Assembly (NCBI GenBank): GCA_937141995.1
Contig: CAKZQX010000556.1
Span: 1-10,219, forward strand
Reading direction: 5' to 3'
Origin: an uncultured Chloroflexaceae bacterium
Lineage (GTDB): Bacteria; Chloroflexota; Chloroflexia; Chloroflexales; Chloroflexaceae
Length of the DNA stretch: 10,219 nucleotides
The translations under genes and the position numbers were made by a program. Below the pieces are notes generated by a model, which was not told the DNA's origin, ran no database searches, and saw nothing but the letters and a program-made list of their open reading frames with translations. How positions within the stretch are numbered: the stretch's first letter is position 1; every line of letters begins with the position of its first letter. This document shows positions 1,665-8,075 of the stretch, piece by piece.

Positions 1665-1717
1665 TCCCTTCATCTTCCCGTTCTATACTGTTCATTCGGT
1701 TTGCCTGGAACGCCCAA

Positions 1718-1752
1718 CGCATAACGCGTGTCATGGTGACACACGTTATGCG
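1718..1752. repeat. Imperfect palindrome made of two abutting element ends
   Basis: CGCATAACGCGTGTCA (1718-1733) and TGACACACGTTATGCG (1737-1752) are inverted copies with one mismatch, separated by TGG. The right half is the left terminal repeat of the element at 1737-1937. The left half looks like the right terminal repeat of another, otherwise missing, copy. The 19-bp string at 1723-1741 recurs exactly at 1927-1945, at the other end of the element. The palindrome lies about 50 bp upstream of the sugar kinase start, where it could influence transcription. Confidence 0.75.
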
Positions 1753-1937
1753 GTTGCTCACCCAAAAGGAGTTTTCGCCTCCGGCAGGGCGGAAAAAACC
1801 GGATCTTTTTCACGAACATTTGGCTCGAAGAGCCAAATTTCGTGAAAAAGATAATAGAGTACCACGCTGCCGCAGGCGAATCGGGCTTCCATCGAGTGAA
1901 ACGTCCGGGTTGTATGTCAACCGCGTAACGCGTGTCA
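1737..1937. mobile_element. Nested-palindrome element, copy A (MITE/REP-like, non-coding)
   Basis: This 201-bp unit is bounded by 20-bp terminal inverted repeats, TGACACACGTTATGCGGTTG (1737-1756) and CAACCGCGTAACGCGTGTCA (1918-1937), which match at 18 of 20 positions. A second inverted repeat lies inside: TTCGCCTCCGGCAG (1774-1787) against CTGCCGCAGGCGAA (1867-1880), one mismatch. At the centre is a long hairpin (1803-1852). The trinucleotide TGG flanks both ends and may be a target duplication or part of neighbouring element ends. No sensible protein is encoded. Related copies lie at 7657-8075 and an end remnant at 6205-6229. The architecture fits a non-autonomous transposable element or a repeated structured locus; no transposase is present in the window. 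Confidence 0.75.
1803..1852. repeat. Central long hairpin of copy A
   Basis: The arms 1803-1826 and 1830-1852 pair over 23 bp with a single bulged C at about 1817 and a three-base loop (GAA). The loop-proximal pairs GGCTC/GAGCC and the 3' foot AAAGAT are identical in the hairpin of copy C (7948-7994), whereas the middle of the stem differs there on both arms. The hairpin could work as a terminator-like structure, a cruciform or an RNA fold; only the pairing is directly visible. Confidence 0.85.
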
Positions 1938-1945
1938 TGGTGACA

Positions 1946-2126
1946 GCATATGCAGCGAAGTGCAAATAGAATGCCAGGCGCACACAGCACGGACAAACCG
2001 GTCGTCCAATAACGGTGCATCAGGCACGCTTTGTTCTCTATTTCAACGACAATGAGATGCTGGTGATCGAGCGGGACAGCCGGCAGGGTGATGTACGCAC
2101 CGTTCATCAGGTTGAACCATGCCTGA
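1946..2126. other. Gene-free stretch with no recognised feature
   Basis: Between copy A and the permease-prefix relic the + strand is open in one frame from 2015, encoding a peptide that begins MHQARFVLYFNDNEMLVIER. I recognise no family in it and it runs on into the relic in a different frame, so it may be further decayed coding sequence. No ribosome-binding site or convincing gene start is seen. Confidence 0.4.
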
Positions 2127-2294
2127 ATTTTGCTGCCCCCACGTTGCGATGCCCTGCTGGGCGATCGGGAGGAGGAGTATCGGGAGATCTACGCGCAGCA
2201 TGGGAAGCCGCAGGCGTAGTTCTGGTACTGGTGCCAGGCGCTGACCTCCTTCGGGTCGCTCCTCTGGCGCGCAGTGCGTACCATGACGAAGTGA
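2127..2294 (+). pseudogene. Remnant of an ABC-permease prefix-domain (type 2) protein
   Basis: One frame reads LLPPRCDALLGDREEEYREI, then a few residues to PQA, a TAG stop (2217-2219), and continues in the same frame as FWYWCQALTSFGSLLWRAVR up to TGA (2292-2294). The combination 'LLGD-x-EEEY ... WYW-x-Q-x-L ... LLW' is the hallmark, as I recall it, of the prefix domain found in front of MacB-like ABC permeases or as a stand-alone small protein beside them. The internal stop between the two halves and an in-frame stop just upstream (2124-2126) leave no intact start, so I read it as a decayed gene. No permease gene follows; a short in-frame continuation (MFAWLGDVIRRIIPKVLHW, 2298-2357) might be the start of a lost downstream gene. 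An intact but readthrough-dependent gene seems unlikely. Confidence 0.55.
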
Positions 2295-2563
2295 GGCATG
2301 TTTGCCTGGCTGGGCGATGTGATCCGCCGTATCATTCCGAAGGTGCTGCATTGGTAACAACCCGGCAAATAAGCAATCTGCATCACAGGTAGTGCCGCCA
2401 TTGAGTGGATGTATGACAACATAACCTGCTGGGGAAGGTTCATTCAGAGAAACCAGCCGAGCCTCGCGCCGAATTACGATCAGCACGAGGCTCATATTGT
2501 CACACTATCGGTTGCCGACTATGCGCTACCGGCCCGGAGCACCTTTCTGCCACAGTCACAGGC
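2295..2563. other. Intergenic stretch with a small hairpin
   Basis: The only structure I see is GAGCCTCG (2459-2466) pairing with CGAGGCTC (2486-2493) across a 19-nt loop, lying 70-105 bp downstream of the stop of the leftward iron-sulfur protein gene. It could mark transcript termination for that gene, but no T-tract follows on the minus strand. The left part may be the tail of the decayed locus next to it. Confidence 0.4.
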
Positions 2564-3274
2564 CTATGCCGCCTGATCGGGCTGGGCGTCAAAGCTCAAT
2601 GCCTTGCGCGGGCAGCGGGCCACACACTGCTCGCACTTGATGCAGGCGGCGTGCGAGGGATCGGGCTGGCTCGGATTGAGATACATTGGGCAGAGTTTAC
2701 TACAGGCGGAACAGCTTGTGCAGGCACTGGGGTTGATGTTCAGCGGACGTTTGCCCCGCGAAACCCAGCTTGCCATGGTACCCATCGGGCAGAAGGTACA
2801 CCAGGTGCGCGGTTTGTAGGCCACTGCCAGACCGATACCAACCAGTGTGGTAACGGTGAGCAGCATAATAAAGACCCGCCCGATAGCCTGCGGATTGGGC
2901 CAGGCCAGCGTGAGTTGCACGGTCATCATGCTCATCAGGAAGATCAACACACCCCGCCGAAAGGCTTTGCTGCGCAGCCATTTGGGGGCGGGCTTATTCC
3001 GGCTGAAGCGACTCATCACATAGTCAAAGAATGACCCGCGCGGGCAGACCCAGCCACACCAGAAGCGTCCGCGGATAGCCCCGATCACCACCGGAGCCGC
3101 CATACAGAGCAGCATCAAAAACCCCAGGTAGGGATAAAACCAGCCACCGATGGCAACGATGGGCAGAGACCACCAGATTATCGCGGCGCTGCGGCGGCGT
3201 GCGGGTAACATAAGTTTCGTGGCCTTCCCGCGACGTGTAGGTGCGTTTCCCCGGCTTTTTGTGAGCGTTGCCAT
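2564..3274 (-). CDS. NapH/YccM-type membrane protein with two 4Fe-4S motifs
   Basis: This 236-residue protein has a basic N-terminus, about four hydrophobic helices (roughly 31-65, 108-124 and 132-153, the first probably two segments) and four cysteine clusters. C-G-W-V-C-P (73-78) and C-T-F-C-P (159-163) match the membrane-linked pairs of the NapH/CcoG/YccM family. C185-x2-C188-x2-C191-x3-C195 and C211-x2-C214-x2-C217-x3-C221-P are two ferredoxin-type [4Fe-4S] motifs near the C-terminus. The family passes electrons between the quinone pool or membrane and a redox partner. No nitrate reductase, FixI/CcoG-type operon or other partner gene lies nearby, so the partner is unknown. The start at 3274 is chosen over one 78 bp upstream because of the Shine-Dalgarno at 3281-3288. 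The gene is divergent from the next small membrane protein gene. Confidence 0.88.
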   Translation of the reverse strand: MATLTKSRGNAPTRRGKATKLMLPARRRSAAIIWWSLPIVAIGGWFYPYLGFLMLLCMAAPVVIGAIRGRFWCGWVCPRGSFFDYVMSRFSRNKPAPKWLRSKAFRRGVLIFLMSMMTVQLTLAWPNPQAIGRVFIMLLTVTTLVGIGLAVAYKPRTWCTFCPMGTMASWVSRGKRPLNINPSACTSCSACSKLCPMYLNPSQPDPSHAACIKCEQCVARCPRKALSFDAQPDQAA

Positions 3275-3280
3275 TGAGTG

Positions 3281-3288
3281 TACCTCCC
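3281..3288 (-). promoter_or_regulatory. Shine-Dalgarno deciding the iron-sulfur protein start
   Basis: On the minus strand GGGAGGTA lies 6 nt before the ATG at 3272-3274. The reading frame stays open to an ATG at 3350-3352 that has no comparable site, so the inner start is preferred. Confidence 0.75.
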
Positions 3289-3395
3289 TGATGAACCATT
3301 CAAACTGCTGTTCACTGTTTGCGTGAGCGACGGTGGCGCTCCGTCTGCACATATGATGCGAGCCGCGCCAGGTAGGTTACAATATTAGCGGCGGT

Positions 3396-3416
3396 TTTTG
3401 GACAATTCGGCCAAAA
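3396..3416. promoter_or_regulatory. Operator-like inverted repeat in a divergent intergenic region
   Basis: TTTTGG (3396-3401) and CCAAAA (3411-3416) form a perfect 6-bp inverted repeat with a 9-bp spacer. It lies between the divergent iron-sulfur protein gene and the small membrane protein gene. A TAATAT hexamer on the minus strand lies close by (3381-3386), a plausible -10 element for the leftward gene. The spacing suits a dimeric regulator, but no known consensus is matched; a site this short could arise by chance. Confidence 0.3.
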
Positions 3417-3467
3417 TGGGTTCATGATCAATCGCATAATTGGTATGAGCGAAGCGAGAGGAGTCTC

Positions 3468-3833
3468 ATGGAACGGATAACCATCTGGTTTGGGGTAATC
3501 TTGATCGCGTTTGGTCTGGTGAGCTATCTGGGCACGGGGAGCAACGATCCCACGGCGCTCACGCCGCTCTTGCCGGGGATACCGATCCTGCTGCTGGGGA
3601 TTGCCGCACGTCAGGGCCGGCAGCCTACGCTGGCGCTGCGCCTGGCGGTCGGGTTGAGCGCGCTGGCACTGCTGGCGACGATCTGGGGACTGCTGTCCGG
3701 GTTGCTGCCGGGGGGCAAGTCTATTTCGCTGCTGGCAAACGTTCTGCAGGCGGTGCTGGCGCTGGGGTGCGCGATCTTTGTGGGATTGTATGTCCGCCGG
3801 GTGCTTCAGGAACGCTCATCGAGCGGTTCGTAG
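3468..3833 (+). CDS. Small four-helix membrane protein, function unknown
   Basis: The 121-residue product is mostly hydrophobic, with likely membrane segments at about 4-22, 31-47, 56-80 and 87-109, and a short charged C-terminal tail (YVRRVLQERSSSGS). There is no cleavable-looking signal peptide and no motif I recognise. Translation should start at 3468: GAGAGGAG (3456-3463) ends 4 nt before the ATG. The gene is divergent from the iron-sulfur membrane protein gene and convergent with the next one, so it is probably a single-gene transcript ending at the hairpin at 3862-3901. Leucine- and glycine-rich composition with high GC at third positions matches the surrounding genes and supports it being real. 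Confidence 0.75.
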   Translation: MERITIWFGVILIAFGLVSYLGTGSNDPTALTPLLPGIPILLLGIAARQGRQPTLALRLAVGLSALALLATIWGLLSGLLPGGKSISLLANVLQAVLALGCAIFVGLYVRRVLQERSSSGS

Positions 3834-3861
3834 GCTCGGCCGGTTGTACGAATGCGAAGGT

Positions 3862-3901
3862 GAGCAGCCGCGTAGTGTTTCTACCGTCTATGCGGCTGCT
3901 C
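3862..3901. terminator. Strong hairpin between convergent genes, probable bidirectional terminator
   Basis: GAGCAGCCGCGTAG (3862-3875) pairs with CTATGCGGCTGCTC (3888-3901) over 14 bp with one G-T wobble and a 12-nt loop. It lies 29 bp after the stop of the rightward small membrane gene and 10 bp beyond the stop of the leftward one. No run of T follows on either strand, so it is not a textbook intrinsic terminator, but position and strength argue for transcript end formation or 3' protection on both sides. Confidence 0.6.
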
Positions 3902-3910
3902 CCAGCTCAC

Positions 3911-4462
3911 CTATGCCGACACCGGTTGCTCCGCGCGCAGAAGCGCAAAGACTGCCGGAATCAGCATCCATGCCAGAAAAAAGATGATAAATCCAAGGCC
4001 GGGAATAAGATTGAGTAGCGCTAAGGTCAATGCGACCCCCACCCCGGCCAGGCGTGCCGGGCGGTGAAAGGCAGGGTGGCGTACCGTCGCCGGCAGCAGG
4101 AGCAGGAGCACACTGAGCATCAGAGCAAAAAAAAGATTCTGGTTCTCGGTAGGATAAATTTTTTCATTCAACACCCTGAAGACAATCAAAATTGTAACAA
4201 TGTGAATTGGTAGTGCCAGGAGACACCCGCGCAACCACGGCGCGCCAATGGCCCAGGTGACAATCGCACCCGCAAAACTTATAGCAGATGGCAGCACAAC
4301 ATATGGAACAAAAACGGGTAGGAAGCCGGAAGGGGAAGAATTTCCGGGACTAACTATATTTAGATTGAAGCTCACTTCGAAGCTCCAATAGTGAGATCCC
4401 AAAATAGCGCCCCCACCAAGAAGGCCCATTCCGGCGGCGAGTGCGGCACGGTGCCAGTTCAT
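3911..4462 (-). CDS. Polytopic membrane protein, function unknown
   Basis: The 183-residue protein has about six hydrophobic segments (approximately 5-23, 48-73, 77-96, 109-125, 137-152 and 155-176). Between the first and second is a polar, probably extracytoplasmic loop rich in Ser, Asn and Pro (residues 26-46). I recognise no family. AGGAG (4470-4474) lies 7 nt before the ATG and supports the start. The middle of the gene (roughly 4130-4350) is noticeably richer in A+T than neighbouring genes, which might reflect a different origin or weak constraint. It stands alone: convergent with the small membrane protein gene and separated by about 500 bp from the exchanger. Confidence 0.7.
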   Translation of the reverse strand: MNWHRAALAAGMGLLGGGAILGSHYWSFEVSFNLNIVSPGNSSPSGFLPVFVPYVVLPSAISFAGAIVTWAIGAPWLRGCLLALPIHIVTILIVFRVLNEKIYPTENQNLFFALMLSVLLLLLPATVRHPAFHRPARLAGVGVALTLALLNLIPGLGFIIFFLAWMLIPAVFALLRAEQPVSA

Positions 4463-4959
4463 GCGTCTACTCCTGCATGCGTATGGTGATGTTGACGTTA
4501 TTATTCTGGCTGCTGGAGGCAGCTATAACCGGGCCGGTATTAGTTCAGCGCAGTGCCGACAGGCGGAGGTGAACCCGCATGCAACCAGGTAATCACTCGG
4601 GCAGGTGCCTGGGTTCGTGCTGTTTGTTCTATCGGTGGCTAGTATAGCATAAAAGATAGCGCCTGTCTGCATAGATCATGCCGGTTGATACCTGGCTGGA
4701 AATCCCAGTTTATCTGTACAACATTTGAATAATTATTTAACTGTTATTTCTGGACCACTATTATGCACCAGGGAAGTGTATCCGGGCCGGGGAAAATCGG
4801 GAAGGAGTGTATCTGCTGAAGTGGAAAGGGTGAAATGGCAGAACCTATGTTTGTTTTTGAAAGGACTATACGAAAGGTATACAGGATTTTTAGTGTAAAT
4901 AAAGATAGTATAAAGTGCATAAAGGTTCTACCTGAATACCGCCGACGTACGGCATGCTG
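4463..4959. other. AT-richer gene-free stretch with one doubtful 42-codon ORF
   Basis: Nothing in these roughly 500 bp resembles a known RNA or gene. Visible items are a near repeat, GGGAAGTGTATC (4771-4782) and GGGAAGGAGTGTATC (4799-4813), and an AT-rich tract around 4720-4755. There is also a short rightward ORF from ATG 4835 to TAA 4961-4963 (peptide begins MAEPMFVFERTIRKVYRIFS), with AAAGGG about 6 nt before the ATG. The ORF overlaps the 3' end of the leftward exchanger gene by four bases. It is below the size at which coding can be argued from sequence alone. The left part must contain the promoter of the membrane protein gene at 3911-4462. Confidence 0.35.
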
Positions 4960-5967
4960 CTAAAAAATAACACTCGTGACACCAAACGTCTCCAGCGCCA
5001 TCCAGCCCACGAAGAGGACATAGCAGCCCAGCAAGATCCAGCTCTCGGTTCGGCTCAATGCCAGCCGCGTACGTAGCAGCGCAAAGAGCAGAATCGTCGC
5101 AAAGGTCAGCACGCCCATCATTGGCGCAGCAACGGCAAAGTCAATCGTGGCCGACCCCACGATCAACACTCCAATCGGAATGGCGATCAGCAGATCAAAA
5201 ATATTACTGCCCAGCACATTGGCGATGCTGATCACCCCTTCGCCCCGGCGTGCCGCGCGTACACTCACAAAGGCATCGGGCAGGCTGGTCGCCGCCGCAA
5301 TCACGGTCAATCCCCAGAGGAACGTCGGGGTATTGAGGATATTGCCCAGGGCAATCGCCGAGCGGACCAACCCCTCCACCGCCGCAACGATAATGACCAG
5401 GCCCAGCAGCAGGCGCAACCACTCCTTGCCAGGCTGAATATCCGATGGAGATTCTTTTTCCGCCTGATACTCAGCGATATCCTGTTGTTGCAGAAAAATG
5501 TAGACGCCATACAGCGCCACGGGGATCAGCGCAATCGGGCGGTTCATCGCGCCCTGCCACTGCGTGCCCTCAACCGGGTTGTAGATCAGGGCGAAGGCGA
5601 AGGCCAGCAGCAGCACGGTGACACTGGTGATGTAAAACTGGGCATCTTTGTAGACCAGGACGCGGTCAGTTACCAGCTTCTCCCCCAGCAGGCCCGCCAG
5701 ACGGGGGATAACCAGAATATTGAAGATCGCCGAGCCGACAATCGTTGCCACGCCGAGATTAAACTCGCCATGGATCAATGTCGCAATCACCGTACTGGAG
5801 AGTTCCGGGAAACTCGAGCCGATCGCCGCGATAATCGCGCCCTGCACAATCGCCGGCAGTTGGTAGTAGGCCGCCAGCCGATCCGCCGCCTTCTCCAGAA
5901 AAAAACTGCCCCGCCAGACAAATGCCGTCGATACCACGATCACGCCAATGTACAAGAGCAGTTGCAT
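4960..5967 (-). CDS. CaCA-family sodium/calcium (cation) exchanger
   Basis: The 335-residue protein has about ten hydrophobic segments and the two inverted alpha-repeats that define the Ca2+:cation antiporter superfamily. Repeat alpha-1 spans about 43-85, with GSSFPEL (50-56, Glu55) and GSAIFN (78-83). Repeat alpha-2 spans about 219-260, with ATSLPDA (226-232, Asp231) and GSNIFD (253-258, Asp258). A polar stretch (160-182) forms the central cytoplasmic loop. The family moves Ca2+ outward against Na+ (or K+/H+) across the plasma membrane. The acidic pair is Glu in alpha-1 and Asp in alpha-2, with a further Asp in the second GSNIF motif, as in K+-dependent NCKX exchangers, whereas classical NCX proteins have Glu and Asn. 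Length is normal for a bacterial member. The ribosome-binding site is weak (GGAACAG). It is followed on its 3' side by an AT-richer gap. Confidence 0.92.
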   Translation of the reverse strand: MQLLLYIGVIVVSTAFVWRGSFFLEKAADRLAAYYQLPAIVQGAIIAAIGSSFPELSSTVIATLIHGEFNLGVATIVGSAIFNILVIPRLAGLLGEKLVTDRVLVYKDAQFYITSVTVLLLAFAFALIYNPVEGTQWQGAMNRPIALIPVALYGVYIFLQQQDIAEYQAEKESPSDIQPGKEWLRLLLGLVIIVAAVEGLVRSAIALGNILNTPTFLWGLTVIAAATSLPDAFVSVRAARRGEGVISIANVLGSNIFDLLIAIPIGVLIVGSATIDFAVAAPMMGVLTFATILLFALLRTRLALSRTESWILLGCYVLFVGWMALETFGVTSVIF

Positions 5968-6016
5968 GGACTGTTCCGTTTAGCTTGAAGATCACTTATG
6001 AACGTTGAGCAAATAC

Positions 6017-6035
6017 CCCGGATACGCCATCCGGG
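6017..6035. repeat. Small hairpin
   Basis: CCCGGAT (6017-6023) and ATCCGGG (6029-6035) pair perfectly over 7 bp around a 5-nt loop. It abuts the larger palindrome beginning at 6034 in the gap between the aldo/keto reductase and the exchanger. There is no T-tract. Confidence 0.5.
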
Positions 6036-6118
6036 AGTCCCGGCTTCACCCGGTGGCATGCCTGCCGGGGCCGCAGCCTACTGCCAGGCAAGCCTGGTCC
6101 GGCTGAAGCCGGGGCTCC
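6034..6118. repeat. REP-like palindrome with nested inner stem
   Basis: GGAGTCCCGGCTTCACCCGG (6034-6053) is complementary to CCGGCTGAAGCCGGGGCTCC (6099-6118) at 18 of 20 positions plus one G-T pair. Inside, TGCCTG (6059-6064) pairs with CAGGCA (6085-6090). It is in the 270-bp gap downstream of the aldo/keto reductase stop and upstream of the exchanger start, both on the minus strand, so it could separate their transcripts. CCGGCTGAAGCCGG-type palindromes are common dispersed repeats in several bacterial groups. It does not share sequence with the TGACAC element family in this window. Confidence 0.65.
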
Positions 6119-6204
6119 AGTTCAGCAATGTCTGGATTTATTTTTCAAAATTGGCCGGTTCGCGGGTTTTGCTCATGTCGTATTGTTGGTGATCCAGACT
6201 CCCA

Positions 6205-6229
6205 CCGCGTAACGCGTGTCATTGACAGC
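6205..6229. repeat. Solitary terminal-repeat remnant of the TGACAC element family
   Basis: CCGCGTAACGCGTGTCA (6205-6221) is identical to the right terminal repeat of copy A. The bases after it (TTGACAGC) match the right flank of copy A (TGGTGACAGC, 1938-1947) except for two missing bases. No other part of an element is found to its left within the gap, so this is an excision footprint, a truncated copy or a minimal end. It lies 11 bp beyond the aldo/keto reductase stop codon. Confidence 0.65.
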
Positions 6230-6239
6230 TATGGTCAAC

Positions 6240-7238
6240 CTACCCCGACACAGCTTCGCGGGTTGGGGGCGCCATAAACTCCGGGCCGACCGGATCATTG
6301 ATCGTCTCGCTCAGGATATGTTCAATGGCATCTTTCCCCGGTCCGGTGAGCGACCAGTCCATTGCGCCGTCGATCGGGTCCAGTTGATCGGGGCGGCGTG
6401 CGCCCCAGAGCGCAATATCGACGCCCTGATCCAGAATCCAGCGGATCGCCAGATGGATCACCTGCCGGTCGTAGTGCTGCTGGGTAAACTGGTTGAGCCG
6501 CTCCACAGCGTTCAGATATTGCTCATAGCGCGGTTGCTGGAACTTGGGGTCGCCCTGGCGCAGATCGTCACCTTCAAAGCTGCGTGTCGCCGTCATCTGG
6601 CCGGACAGCAGTCCCCGACAGAGCGCGCCGTAGGTCAGCAGCGTGATGCCATGCTGCCGGCAGTAGGGCAGCACATCAGCTTCAATAGCTCGCTCAAACA
6701 GATTGTAGGGCGGCTGGCAGGTGTGTAGCGGCGCAACCTGGCGGAAGGTGTCCATCTTCTCGGGTGAGAAGTTGCTCACGCCAATTGCGCGAATCTTGCC
6801 CTGTTGATAGAGCTTATGCATCGCCTCAGCCGCCTGTTCAATCGGCACTGTCGGGTCGGGCCAGTGAACCTGGTAGATATCGATATAGTCAGTCTGGAGC
6901 CGCTGCAACGAGTCATCAATTTCCTGGAAGATCCGATCCGGCGTTGCATTGCGGAACACATTCCCGTCCTTCCAATCCATTGCCACCTTGGTCGCCAGCA
7001 CAATCCGGTCGCGCTGTCCATACTGTGCAATCGCCTTGCCGACAATCTCCTCGGAACGCCCAAACCCGTACACCGGCGCGGTATCGATCAGTGTGATGCC
7101 CCGGTCCAGGGCCGCGTGGATGGTGTTGATCGACTGCTGCTCATCCGTGCCGCCCCACATCCAGCCACCAATGGCCCAGGTGCCCAGGCCCACCCGCGAG
7201 GCATTGATCTCGGTTCCCTGCACGCGAACATATTCCAT
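6240..7238 (-). CDS. Aldo/keto reductase, AKR11/YhdN (GSP69)-like
   Basis: The 332-residue protein is a complete (beta/alpha)8 aldo/keto reductase that reduces carbonyls to alcohols with NADPH in the cytoplasm. The catalytic tetrad is visible: Asp52 and Tyr57 in ITLIDTAPVYGFG, Lys84 in ATKV and His125 in YQVHWPD. Near the C-terminus, IALWGARRPDQL corresponds to the cofactor-binding segment. Many stretches match what I remember of Bacillus subtilis YhdN/general stress protein 69 almost word for word, including WAIGGWMWGGTDEQ, APLHT.QPPYNLFER, LLSG.M and DPVGPEFMAPPTRE. This places it in that subfamily rather than among generic AKRs; the physiological substrate is not established by sequence. 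The start at 7238 is chosen over an ATG 21 bp upstream because AAGGAG (7249-7254) lies between them. The gene appears monocistronic. Confidence 0.95.
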   Translation of the reverse strand: MEYVRVQGTEINASRVGLGTWAIGGWMWGGTDEQQSINTIHAALDRGITLIDTAPVYGFGRSEEIVGKAIAQYGQRDRIVLATKVAMDWKDGNVFRNATPDRIFQEIDDSLQRLQTDYIDIYQVHWPDPTVPIEQAAEAMHKLYQQGKIRAIGVSNFSPEKMDTFRQVAPLHTCQPPYNLFERAIEADVLPYCRQHGITLLTYGALCRGLLSGQMTATRSFEGDDLRQGDPKFQQPRYEQYLNAVERLNQFTQQHYDRQVIHLAIRWILDQGVDIALWGARRPDQLDPIDGAMDWSLTGPGKDAIEHILSETINDPVGPEFMAPPTREAVSG

Positions 7239-7248
7239 GATCCTGCTT

Positions 7249-7254
7249 CTCCTT
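7249..7254 (-). promoter_or_regulatory. Shine-Dalgarno deciding the aldo/keto reductase start
   Basis: AAGGAG on the minus strand is 10 nt before the ATG at 7236-7238 and downstream of the alternative in-frame ATG at 7257-7259, which therefore cannot use it. Confidence 0.65.
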
Positions 7255-7391
7255 GTCATCTCGTCTGGTTTGCAACGGTTTGGAACGTATCACGCCCGAA
7301 TCGGCTTCTGCTTCTGTCGCCCTGCGTCGCAAGAAGCGTGCCACTATGAGCGTGGTACAATACCGCTATACAGCCGGGAAAGGACCGTACA

Positions 7392-7615
7392 ATGACGATG
7401 ACCATAGCTGAACTAACGGCACAGACGGAGCAACTTCCGTCAGGAGAACAGGAGAAACTTGTGCGGTGACTGCTCACGCTGCGGGGCCGGCAACAATTAC
7501 ATTCGGTACTACCAGCAGCCACCCCCGGCGTGGTATGGCCGAGAAATTGGAGCAGGTGCAGATTGATCCGGCGGGTGCGATGGTACGGGTTATCGAAGTA
7601 GAATGTGAAAGATAA
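7392..7615 (+). pseudogene. Decayed small gene, N-terminus like short antitoxin-type proteins
   Basis: From ATG 7392 the frame reads MTMTIAELTAQTEQLPSGEQ, then EKLVR and a TGA stop (7467-7469), after which the same frame continues LLTLRGRQQ. A second frame (ATG 7535 to TAA 7613-7615) gives MAEKLEQVQIDPAGAMVRVI before VECER. 'xxLxxQxxxLPxxEQxKLV' is the usual opening of small DUF2281/VapB-like antitoxins and related short proteins common in Chloroflexi and cyanobacteria. A TGG-to-TGA change plus a frameshift would explain the present state. The reconstructed length, about 75 residues, fits. No toxin (PIN) gene follows; the repeat cluster begins 42 bp downstream. Alternatively, the first 25 codons are a real small peptide, which I think less likely. 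Confidence 0.4.
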
Positions 7616-7656
7616 ACGGATTGCCTCTTGAGCAGTGGTAAACATATGCCATAATA

Positions 7657-7732
7657 TGACACGAGTTACGCGGTCCCTAACCCGGAAGGTATTTCAGCCT
7701 CCGGCCTGCCGAAAGCGAAACCTCCTTTTAAG
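7657..7732. mobile_element. Partial copy of the nested-palindrome element (left end only)
   Basis: The stretch begins with the terminal repeat TGACACGAGTTACGCGGT (7657-7674) and continues with CAGCCTCCGGCCTGCCG, corresponding to the left part of copy A. It is cut off where the terminal repeat of the inverted copy B begins (7733). This suggests insertion of one element into another, or recombination between copies. Confidence 0.65.
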
Positions 7733-7878
7733 TGACACAACTTACGCGGTGGGTACACAAATTGAACATGTGCCCAGGTGGACGCCCGATTCGCCTCCGG
7801 CAGTATGGTACATGTTGATCTTCCGCCCTGCCGGAGGCGGAATCTCCTGTCGGATCAACGACCGCGTAACGCGTGGTA
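7733..7878. mobile_element. Nested-palindrome element, copy B (inverted, short centre)
   Basis: Terminal repeats TGACACAACTTACGCGGT (7733-7750) and ACCGCGTAACGCGTGGTA (7861-7878) bound a 146-bp unit. The inner inverted repeat TTCGCCTCCGGCAG (7790-7803) / CTGCCGGAGGCGGAA (7828-7842) is well kept. Read on the minus strand, its arms align with copy A (GTACCATACTGCCGGAGGCG, then AATCGGGC), so it lies in the opposite orientation. The long central hairpin of copies A and C is absent, leaving only 24 bp between the inner repeats. Confidence 0.7.
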
Positions 7879-7880
7879 AG

Positions 7881-8075
7881 TGACTGCAGTTACGCAGTCT
7901 ATCCTTGGGCAGTGGATAGCGCCTCCGGCAGGGCGGAACAGGACATCCTTTGTCAGGACATGTTGGCTCACAGAGCCAACATGTCCTGACAAAGATCATA
8001 AAGCGTACCATGCTGCCGCAGGGAATCGGGCTTCCATCGGGTGAAACAAGTGAGCAACCACGTAAATCGTGAACA
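7881..8075. mobile_element. Nested-palindrome element, copy C
   Basis: The unit starts with a diverged terminal repeat TGACTGCAGTTACGCAGT (7881-7898) and ends with CAACCACGTAAATCGTGAAC (8055-8074), a degraded partner. The inner repeat GCCTCCGGCAGGGCGGAA (7921-7938) and CTGCCGCAGG (8013-8022) flank a perfect central hairpin. The 3' arm, TACCATGCTGCCGCAGG followed by AATCGGGCTTCCATCGGGTG, aligns closely with copy A in the same orientation. The element ends only about 20 bp before the ribosome-binding site of the propeller gene, so that gene's promoter must lie in or at the edge of it. Confidence 0.7.
7948..7994. repeat. Perfect central hairpin of copy C
   Basis: Arms 7948-7969 and 7973-7994 are perfectly complementary over 22 bp with a three-base ACA loop. 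It is the counterpart of the hairpin at 1803-1852: same apical GGCTC/GAGCC and AAAGAT foot, different middle stem. Confidence 0.9.

Follow-up and report, generated by a model that had tools for sequence, protein, structure and literature searches.

The window analysed here, the whole stretch of 10,219 nucleotides of contig CAKZQX010000556.1 from an uncultured Chloroflexaceae bacterium (genome of 5.4 Mb in 1122 contigs), holds an ordinary set of genes, for an FGGY kinase, a 4Fe-4S protein, a Na/Ca exchanger, an aldo/keto reductase, a BNR-repeat protein and a subtilase, and between these genes a group of short repeated elements that share the 16-bp end ACASGMSTTACGCGGT in inverted orientation (Table 1). 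These elements, which we regard as miniature inverted-repeat transposable elements (MITEs), are the subject of this text. Three near-complete copies (A, B and C), a partial copy and a lone end had been recognised in a sequence-only reading of the window; all five exist, with coordinates that shifted slightly on closer analysis, and an additional lone end was found beside copy A. The long central hairpin ascribed to two of the copies is likewise present in copies A and C.

In copy A the short arm measures 19 nt and the long arm 39 nt, with short spacers beside the hairpin, and copy C has no matching target duplication. Comparison of folding with chance gave z = -8.03 for 233 nt around copy A and z = -12.91 for 436 nt around the cluster of copies.

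Table 1. Features of the elements in the window, with the basis on which each was placed
Feature	Position	Strand	Basis or layout
Solitary outward end (AACGCATAACGCGTGT)	1716-1731	-	7 bp left of copy A
Target-site duplication CATGGTG (7 bp), left of copy A	1732-1738		sequence
Copy A, complete, 197 bp	1739-1935	+	end, short arm, C-core, hairpin, G-core, long arm, end
C-core of copy A (TTCGCCTCCGGCAGGGCGGAA)	1774-1794	+	sequence
Central hairpin of copy A, arms paired except one extra base	1803-1852		self-match, fold
G-core (complement) of copy A; G-core consensus GTACCATGCTGCCGCAGGCGAA	1859-1880	+	sequence
Target-site duplication CATGGTG, right of copy A	1936-1942		sequence
Solitary end ACCGCGTAACGCGTGT	6204-6219	-	sequence
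Truncated element (end, short arm, C-core-like sequence), reaching the copy B duplication	7659-7728	+	sequence
TAAGTG duplication left of copy B	7729-7734		sequence
Copy B, 142 bp, without long hairpin, 9 nt between cores	7735-7876	-	sequence
TAAGTG, spacer common to copies B and C	7877-7882		sequence
Copy C, 190 bp, decayed right end	7883-8072	+	sequence
Central hairpin of copy C, 22-nt arms 100% complementary, 3-nt loop	7948-7994		inverted-repeat match

The window also contains a second inverted repeat at 6034-6118 (GGAGTCCCGGCTTCACCCGG / CCGGCTGAAGCCGGGGCTCC), which is unrelated to the MITE; a similar string was seen by eye in locus L051 of a sister genome.

Mobility, arrays and target site

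The end sequence, allowing at most one mismatch, occurs 507 + 497 times in the genome, compared with 1 + 1 for the same pattern read backwards, and these 1004 ends dispose of the possibility, named beforehand as a refutation, that the genome would hold no further copies. The copy number would be on the order of 500 elements, or about 2% of the genome; a Blast search with copy A returned at least 84 matches (40 of 654 candidates scored). For detailed comparison, elements were required to have both ends, with no more than 4 mismatches per end, and a length of 60-300 bp, and identical copies were counted once, which gave 161 unique elements from 127 loci of the same genome (some overlapping) together with the window. 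Within the length range set by this selection the commonest length is about 195-200 bp. The distance from the end to the start of the C-core takes discrete values, 35, 55 or 109 nt in most cases and 73 nt in others, as though modules of the short arm had been inserted.

All 161 are short, transposase-free elements with terminal inverted repeats, and exact target duplications of 5-7 bp flank 66 of them (5 bp in 40, 6 bp in 24 and 7 bp in 2), where shuffling of the right flanks leaves duplications of 5 bp or more at about 1%. Three copies (L005, L007 and L008) are identical over 198 bp and have different flanks; their movement would therefore be recent. The sequence-only reading was right to see a repeated family with three nested symmetric layers and no transposase inside, and its setting the family apart from MITEs is not supported, since the ends, the target duplications and the identical copies are those of a transposase-mobilised MITE. 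Its statement that all copies are non-coding holds for the window, and fails in the strict sense for the family: when 60 sampled contigs and the window were examined with a rough call of open reading frames (ORFs), 5 of 83 element islands lay wholly within an ORF. Among the same 83 islands 36 are placed between tandem, 19 between divergent and 12 between convergent genes.

Many elements stand end to end. In 61 contigs, 55 abutting pairs of ends are separated by 5 bp (31 pairs), 6 bp (21), 7 bp (2) or 8 bp (1), and no other gap within 0-12 bp was seen. The bases of the spacer repeat within an array, as with CAATG (three times, L104), TATTT (three times, L092) and TATTG (L105). Tandem duplication was considered as the source of the arrays and is not supported, as neighbours share 8-mers at the level of random pairs (0.126 versus 0.118, 44 pairs); being no more alike than random pairs, they would have arrived separately. 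Elements with a duplication number 71, of which 48 adjoin another end and 23 are isolated; in the isolated insertions the duplication, NANTN or NANNTN in form, tends to be preceded by T and followed by A. A strict target, T.A.{1,3}T.A, fits 10 of the 23 isolated and 41 of the 48 array insertions; the forms TNANTNA and TNANNTNA occupy 0.19% and 0.16% of positions.

With A as its first and T as its last base, the element rebuilds T-NANTN-A at both junctions. The arrays with identical 5-6 bp spacers probably exist because the terminal A and T regenerate the target TNANTNA. A transposase acting on the 16-bp ends would favour the palindromic target T-NA(N)TN-A, and the intact target left at both junctions could then receive later, unrelated copies at the same bases, building up an array. 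Such a target-regeneration rule offers a simple, testable reason for the exact stacking of these MITEs.

The candidate transposase

We consider it probable, at roughly 0.7, that the elements form a MITE family and that a DDE transposase, most likely one of the NCBIfam type IS701_2, moves them in trans. A search for insertion-sequence ends that was blind to the MITE sequence covered 30 loci (some overlapping). In it, five distinct insertion sequences proved to end in TAGGACTTACGCAGTTG or [TC]AGGAGTTACGCAGTT and to be flanked by exact duplications of 5-6 bp: AAAGA (L187), CTCTTT (L188), ACGCT (L190), ATTGA (L189) and CTGAT (L202). Transposase scores against NF049921 (transpos_IS701_2, cut-off 250 bits) were 345 bits for L187, 364 for L202, 336 for L190 and 374 for L185. 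The last of these and L186 have somewhat different ends (TAGGACTTTCGCTTGA and CAGGGCTTTCGCTTAG) and 5-bp duplications, the remaining loci of the search gave unlike or no convincing ends, and four other DDE_5 elements (L257, L258, L261 and L266) have another kind of end with 4-bp duplications.

The ends of the IS701_2 insertion sequences, CAGGAGTTACGCAGTTG, are nearly identical to those of the MITE, CASGASTTACGCGGTTG, which differ by one changed base in CAGGAGTTACGC(A/G)GTTG and by an extra terminal A, and the duplications measure 5-6 bp in both. Judged from terminal sequence and duplication length, an IS701_2-type transposase is the likely partner of the MITE. A transposase gene bounded by the MITE's own ends had been proposed as something to look for; near-identical ends were found on IS701_2 insertion sequences of related genomes, while exact ones were not recovered.

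The genome of the window contains a complete insertion sequence of 1170 bp (L085 1000-2169, contig C394), with ends ACTCACCTTACGC and a 6-bp duplication, TATATT, whose protein of 354 aa scores 320 bits against NF049921 IS701_2. Among the 82 genomes of the order, 21 have a related protein. The insertion sequence of L085 directly adjoins a MITE array. Seven DDE_Tnp_1 loci of this genome (L081-L087) were tried as candidates and L085 alone gave paired ends of the related type in the relaxed scan described below; the blind search covered L085 among them, the other six lying outside it. When the fetched stretches were scanned for an autonomous copy by paired ends plus duplication, the one candidate was a run of several small elements in L105, and a relaxed paired-end scan of the same stretches gave 11 candidates, of which L085 alone was judged convincing. 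In genome G034, a segment of 1873 bp (L203 387-2260) with TAGGAGTTACGCAGTTG ends and the duplication TTGGT contains a fragment resembling IS701_2, another end in its interior and a distinct ORF of 298 aa; it is possibly a composite or passenger-carrying element.

Several observations weigh against the reading as a MITE family moved by such a transposase. The genome of the window gave a single IS701_2 copy, L085, whose ends differ from those of the MITE, and one other DDE_5 element, which has unlike ends; this and the related genomes searched yielded no autonomous element whose ends are exactly those of the MITE. Genomes G001 (of the same genus as the window), G003, G024, G039 and G067 carry many ends and gave no IS701_2 match, and G009 gave IS701_2 fragments. 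The ends of L184 and L192 look right by eye, and no exact duplication was found beside them. Among the MITEs themselves, 93 of the 161 have no exact duplication of 4 bp or more (2 more have one of 4 bp), and the strict target motif is missed by 13 of the 23 isolated insertions.

In genome G014, seven contigs (including L110, L120 and L130) have an exact end 82-99 bp from their border, and the adjoining sequence is identical in the three contigs read, with no interior assembled; this shared border sequence suggests an unassembled multi-copy insertion sequence.

Pairing in the central hairpin

Both cores were recognised in 131 elements of the genome, and they lie 45-72 nt apart in 116, less than 25 nt in 9, in between in 2 and more than 72 nt in 4. 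Two of the long-spaced elements were read (L030 1707-1968 and L067 930-1190); each has two complete hairpins, different from one another, placed consecutively between the cores. Of the 116, 108 have a stem of 16 bp or more and 8 do not, and in these 108 hairpins 41 of 2444 pairs are mismatched. Where the stem reaches 18 bp and the loop has 3 nt (99 stems, of which 80 are distinct), pairing within a copy amounts to 98.6%, compared with 65.0% when right arms were shuffled between copies (maximum 68.6% of 1000). A second count, on 40 of 97 usable hairpins, gave 92.3% against 72.8% shuffled, the value being lower because of one-base shifts in that alignment; 16 of 20 pairs had changed on both sides, in 121 such cells against 39 shuffled, and covariation was 0.412, compared with 0.109 after shuffling and no more than 0.097 when partners were slid.

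Of the nested symmetries described in the sequence-only reading, strong covariation is confined to the central hairpin. The two outer ends agree with one another at 84.6%, compared with 82.4% shuffled (maximum 83.9%), and were rejected as a covarying stem because their pairing is little above the shuffled level. The inner core stem is conserved rather than covarying, and conservation is higher in the cores than in either the arms or the hairpin; a C-C mismatch interrupts the core stem in 101 of the 108 copies, and the position is paired in 2. Folded recombination sites of the attC type also combine outer boxes that are conserved, an inner stem interrupted by a fixed mismatch and a terminal hairpin that varies, and this likeness invites the idea of a single-strand recombination site, to which we give next to no credence in view of the 5-7 bp target duplications and the transposon-type ends.

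The same layout occurs in other genomes with other stems. The exact end pattern was found in 18 of the 82 genomes of the order (own included), and a survey of loci from 13 other genomes, plus a set of named records, yielded 13 distinct core-hairpin units with stems of at least 15 bp; these came from nine genomes and from a single Kouleothrix record that may coincide with one of the genomes. Three of the surveyed genomes gave no unit and G039 gave one without a long stem. Core-to-core distance is 97-104 in 11 of the 13 units, the loop has 3 nt in 10, and end-like sequence stands on both sides in 10. The longest stretch shared between their stems and any of the 108 stems of the window's genome is 6-10 nt, and between the other genomes it is 8 nt or less, except for 16 nt shared by L115 (G065) and the Kouleothrix record L253, which are therefore related.

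Compensatory change in a hairpin is usually read as a sign of RNA function, and the strong covariation, together with this layout in nine other genomes with other stem sequences, could be explained by a structured regulatory RNA family spread by transposition, in which the hairpin covaries because the transcript must fold. We consider this unlikely. Mismatches of the G-U type are hardly more frequent than those of the A-C type (14 versus 11 among the 2444 pairs, p = 0.69), such that wobble is not favoured, the loops are hypervariable, no Rfam family matches the window, and the islands have the mixed gene positions given above. What is seen here, then, is strong covariation in mobile DNA with no wobble preference.

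The modules of a copy also appear to have separate histories. In 45 copies with equal-length arms, compared over 21 module pairs, inter-copy distances in different modules are almost uncorrelated (short versus long arm p = 0.035, all others p ≥ 0.06). Outside the hairpin, neighbouring polymorphic sites show an association of 0.19, which drops to 0.073 at distances above 40 bp (mean after shuffling 0.063), compared with 0.066 between hairpin and rest and 0.96 between hairpin partners. As association beyond 40 bp is near background, the copies look reassorted by recombination or conversion. The sequence of the hairpin varies between copies while its pairing stays Watson-Crick, and it is statistically unlinked to the rest of the element.

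How the pairing persists is a question on which closely related copies are informative. L005 and L015 differ at 6 of 198 positions, namely three loop bases, one core base and two end bases, and the loops, CTT and AAG, are exact reverse complements on an unchanged 25-bp stem; L287 differs at 9 positions, including the same loop inversion and one paired stem change. Over the 60 closest of 77 comparisons, which overlap, paired changes number 412 and one-sided changes 47, the latter count being inflated because loops differ in length. In the excerpts of PMC8794818 consulted, loop inversions and clustered paired changes are the marks of template switching in ribosomal RNA hairpins; the hairpins described there share with ours the paired stem changes and loop inversions, and differ in that the MITE is mobile DNA, represented by paralogues of one genome, with no wobble preference.

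We propose, tentatively and as something that may well prove wrong, that pairing and not sequence is inherited in this family: template switching and loop inversion would keep rewriting the hairpin, copies would also exchange it with one another, and the terminal A and T would make every copy a landing site for the next.

On the MITE reading given above, the pairing would be a property at the level of DNA, found in those copies that go on amplifying and restored by changes of both partners in a single step, such as template switching or loop inversion, and by the swapping of segments among copies. Mismatches on one side only have the look of normal decay in a copy already inserted. From the private variants of the cores (34 of 4644), 35.8 mismatched pairs would be expected and 41 are observed, a load so near to prediction that no correction of fresh one-sided mutations is visible, and active correction of this kind is accordingly not supported.

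Two points count against this account, namely that the unlinked modules could partly reflect saturation by old divergence, and that, with a mismatch load fitting private decay, the paired state could be kept by selection alone. In that second case the hairpin would be needed at amplification, for instance for binding of a host factor or for the distance between ends, and no template switching would take place. The layout preserved in the other genomes, the scarcity of closely spaced cores (9 of 131) and the mismatch load all speak for such selection, which we regard as a serious possibility at somewhat short of even odds; on the other side, the very close copies L005, L015 and L287 are set apart by a complete inversion of the loop and by one paired change, with no one-sided change in the stem. 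The single-genome data set could serve to separate selection from template switching, and, if the proposal of rewriting is true, hundreds of paralogues in one genome would provide a natural record of palindrome evolution.

Occurrence and comparison with known systems

REPINs consist of two inverted cores flanking a variable centre, and the MITE recalls them in this respect. The family could on these grounds be a repetitive extragenic palindromic (REP) sequence or bacterial interspersed mosaic element (BIME), or be REPIN-like, with the cores TTCGCCTSCGGCAG as the replicating part and the outer ends incidental; a RAYT, which is a Y1 transposase, would then move the cores, and a GTAG or CGTC tag would be the mark of such a system. 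The greater conservation of the cores, and a unit in L035 (G021) with core and hairpin and no recognisable ends, agree with this view; the exact 5-7 bp duplications fall at the outer ends, and end-like sequence flanks most of the long-hairpin units elsewhere, and we hold it to be quite improbable. What the MITE shares with REP/BIME and REPIN systems is inverted conserved cores, a variable centre and high copy number, and it differs from them by transposon-type ends with target duplications.

The core pattern was found in at least 8 stretches among the matches listed (4 titled Kouleothrix, 3 Chloroflexales and 1 Bacillota bin); an uncultured Kouleothrix and Chloroflexales bacterium ZM16-3 are among the organisms that carry it. 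Phages and plasmids gave no match to copy A, viral contigs none with the exact core pattern, and Rfam none at gathering score in the window. The impression that the elements belong to no described family stands in so far as no description was met in the open-access (Creative Commons-licensed PubMed Central) literature, and the family appears to be a MITE variant previously without description in the papers searched. In the prokaryotic MITE review PMC10969869, as far as a term search of its text reaches, IS701, Chloroflexi and hairpin do not occur.

Bacterial MITEs named in the portion of PMC3733652 consulted include Nezha, NEMIS, RUP and ERIC, among others. Like these, the elements described here are short, contain no transposase, and have inverted ends, target duplications and many copies; from them they differ by a hypervariable yet paired hairpin, by modules that are unlinked to one another, and by arrays built at exactly the same site.

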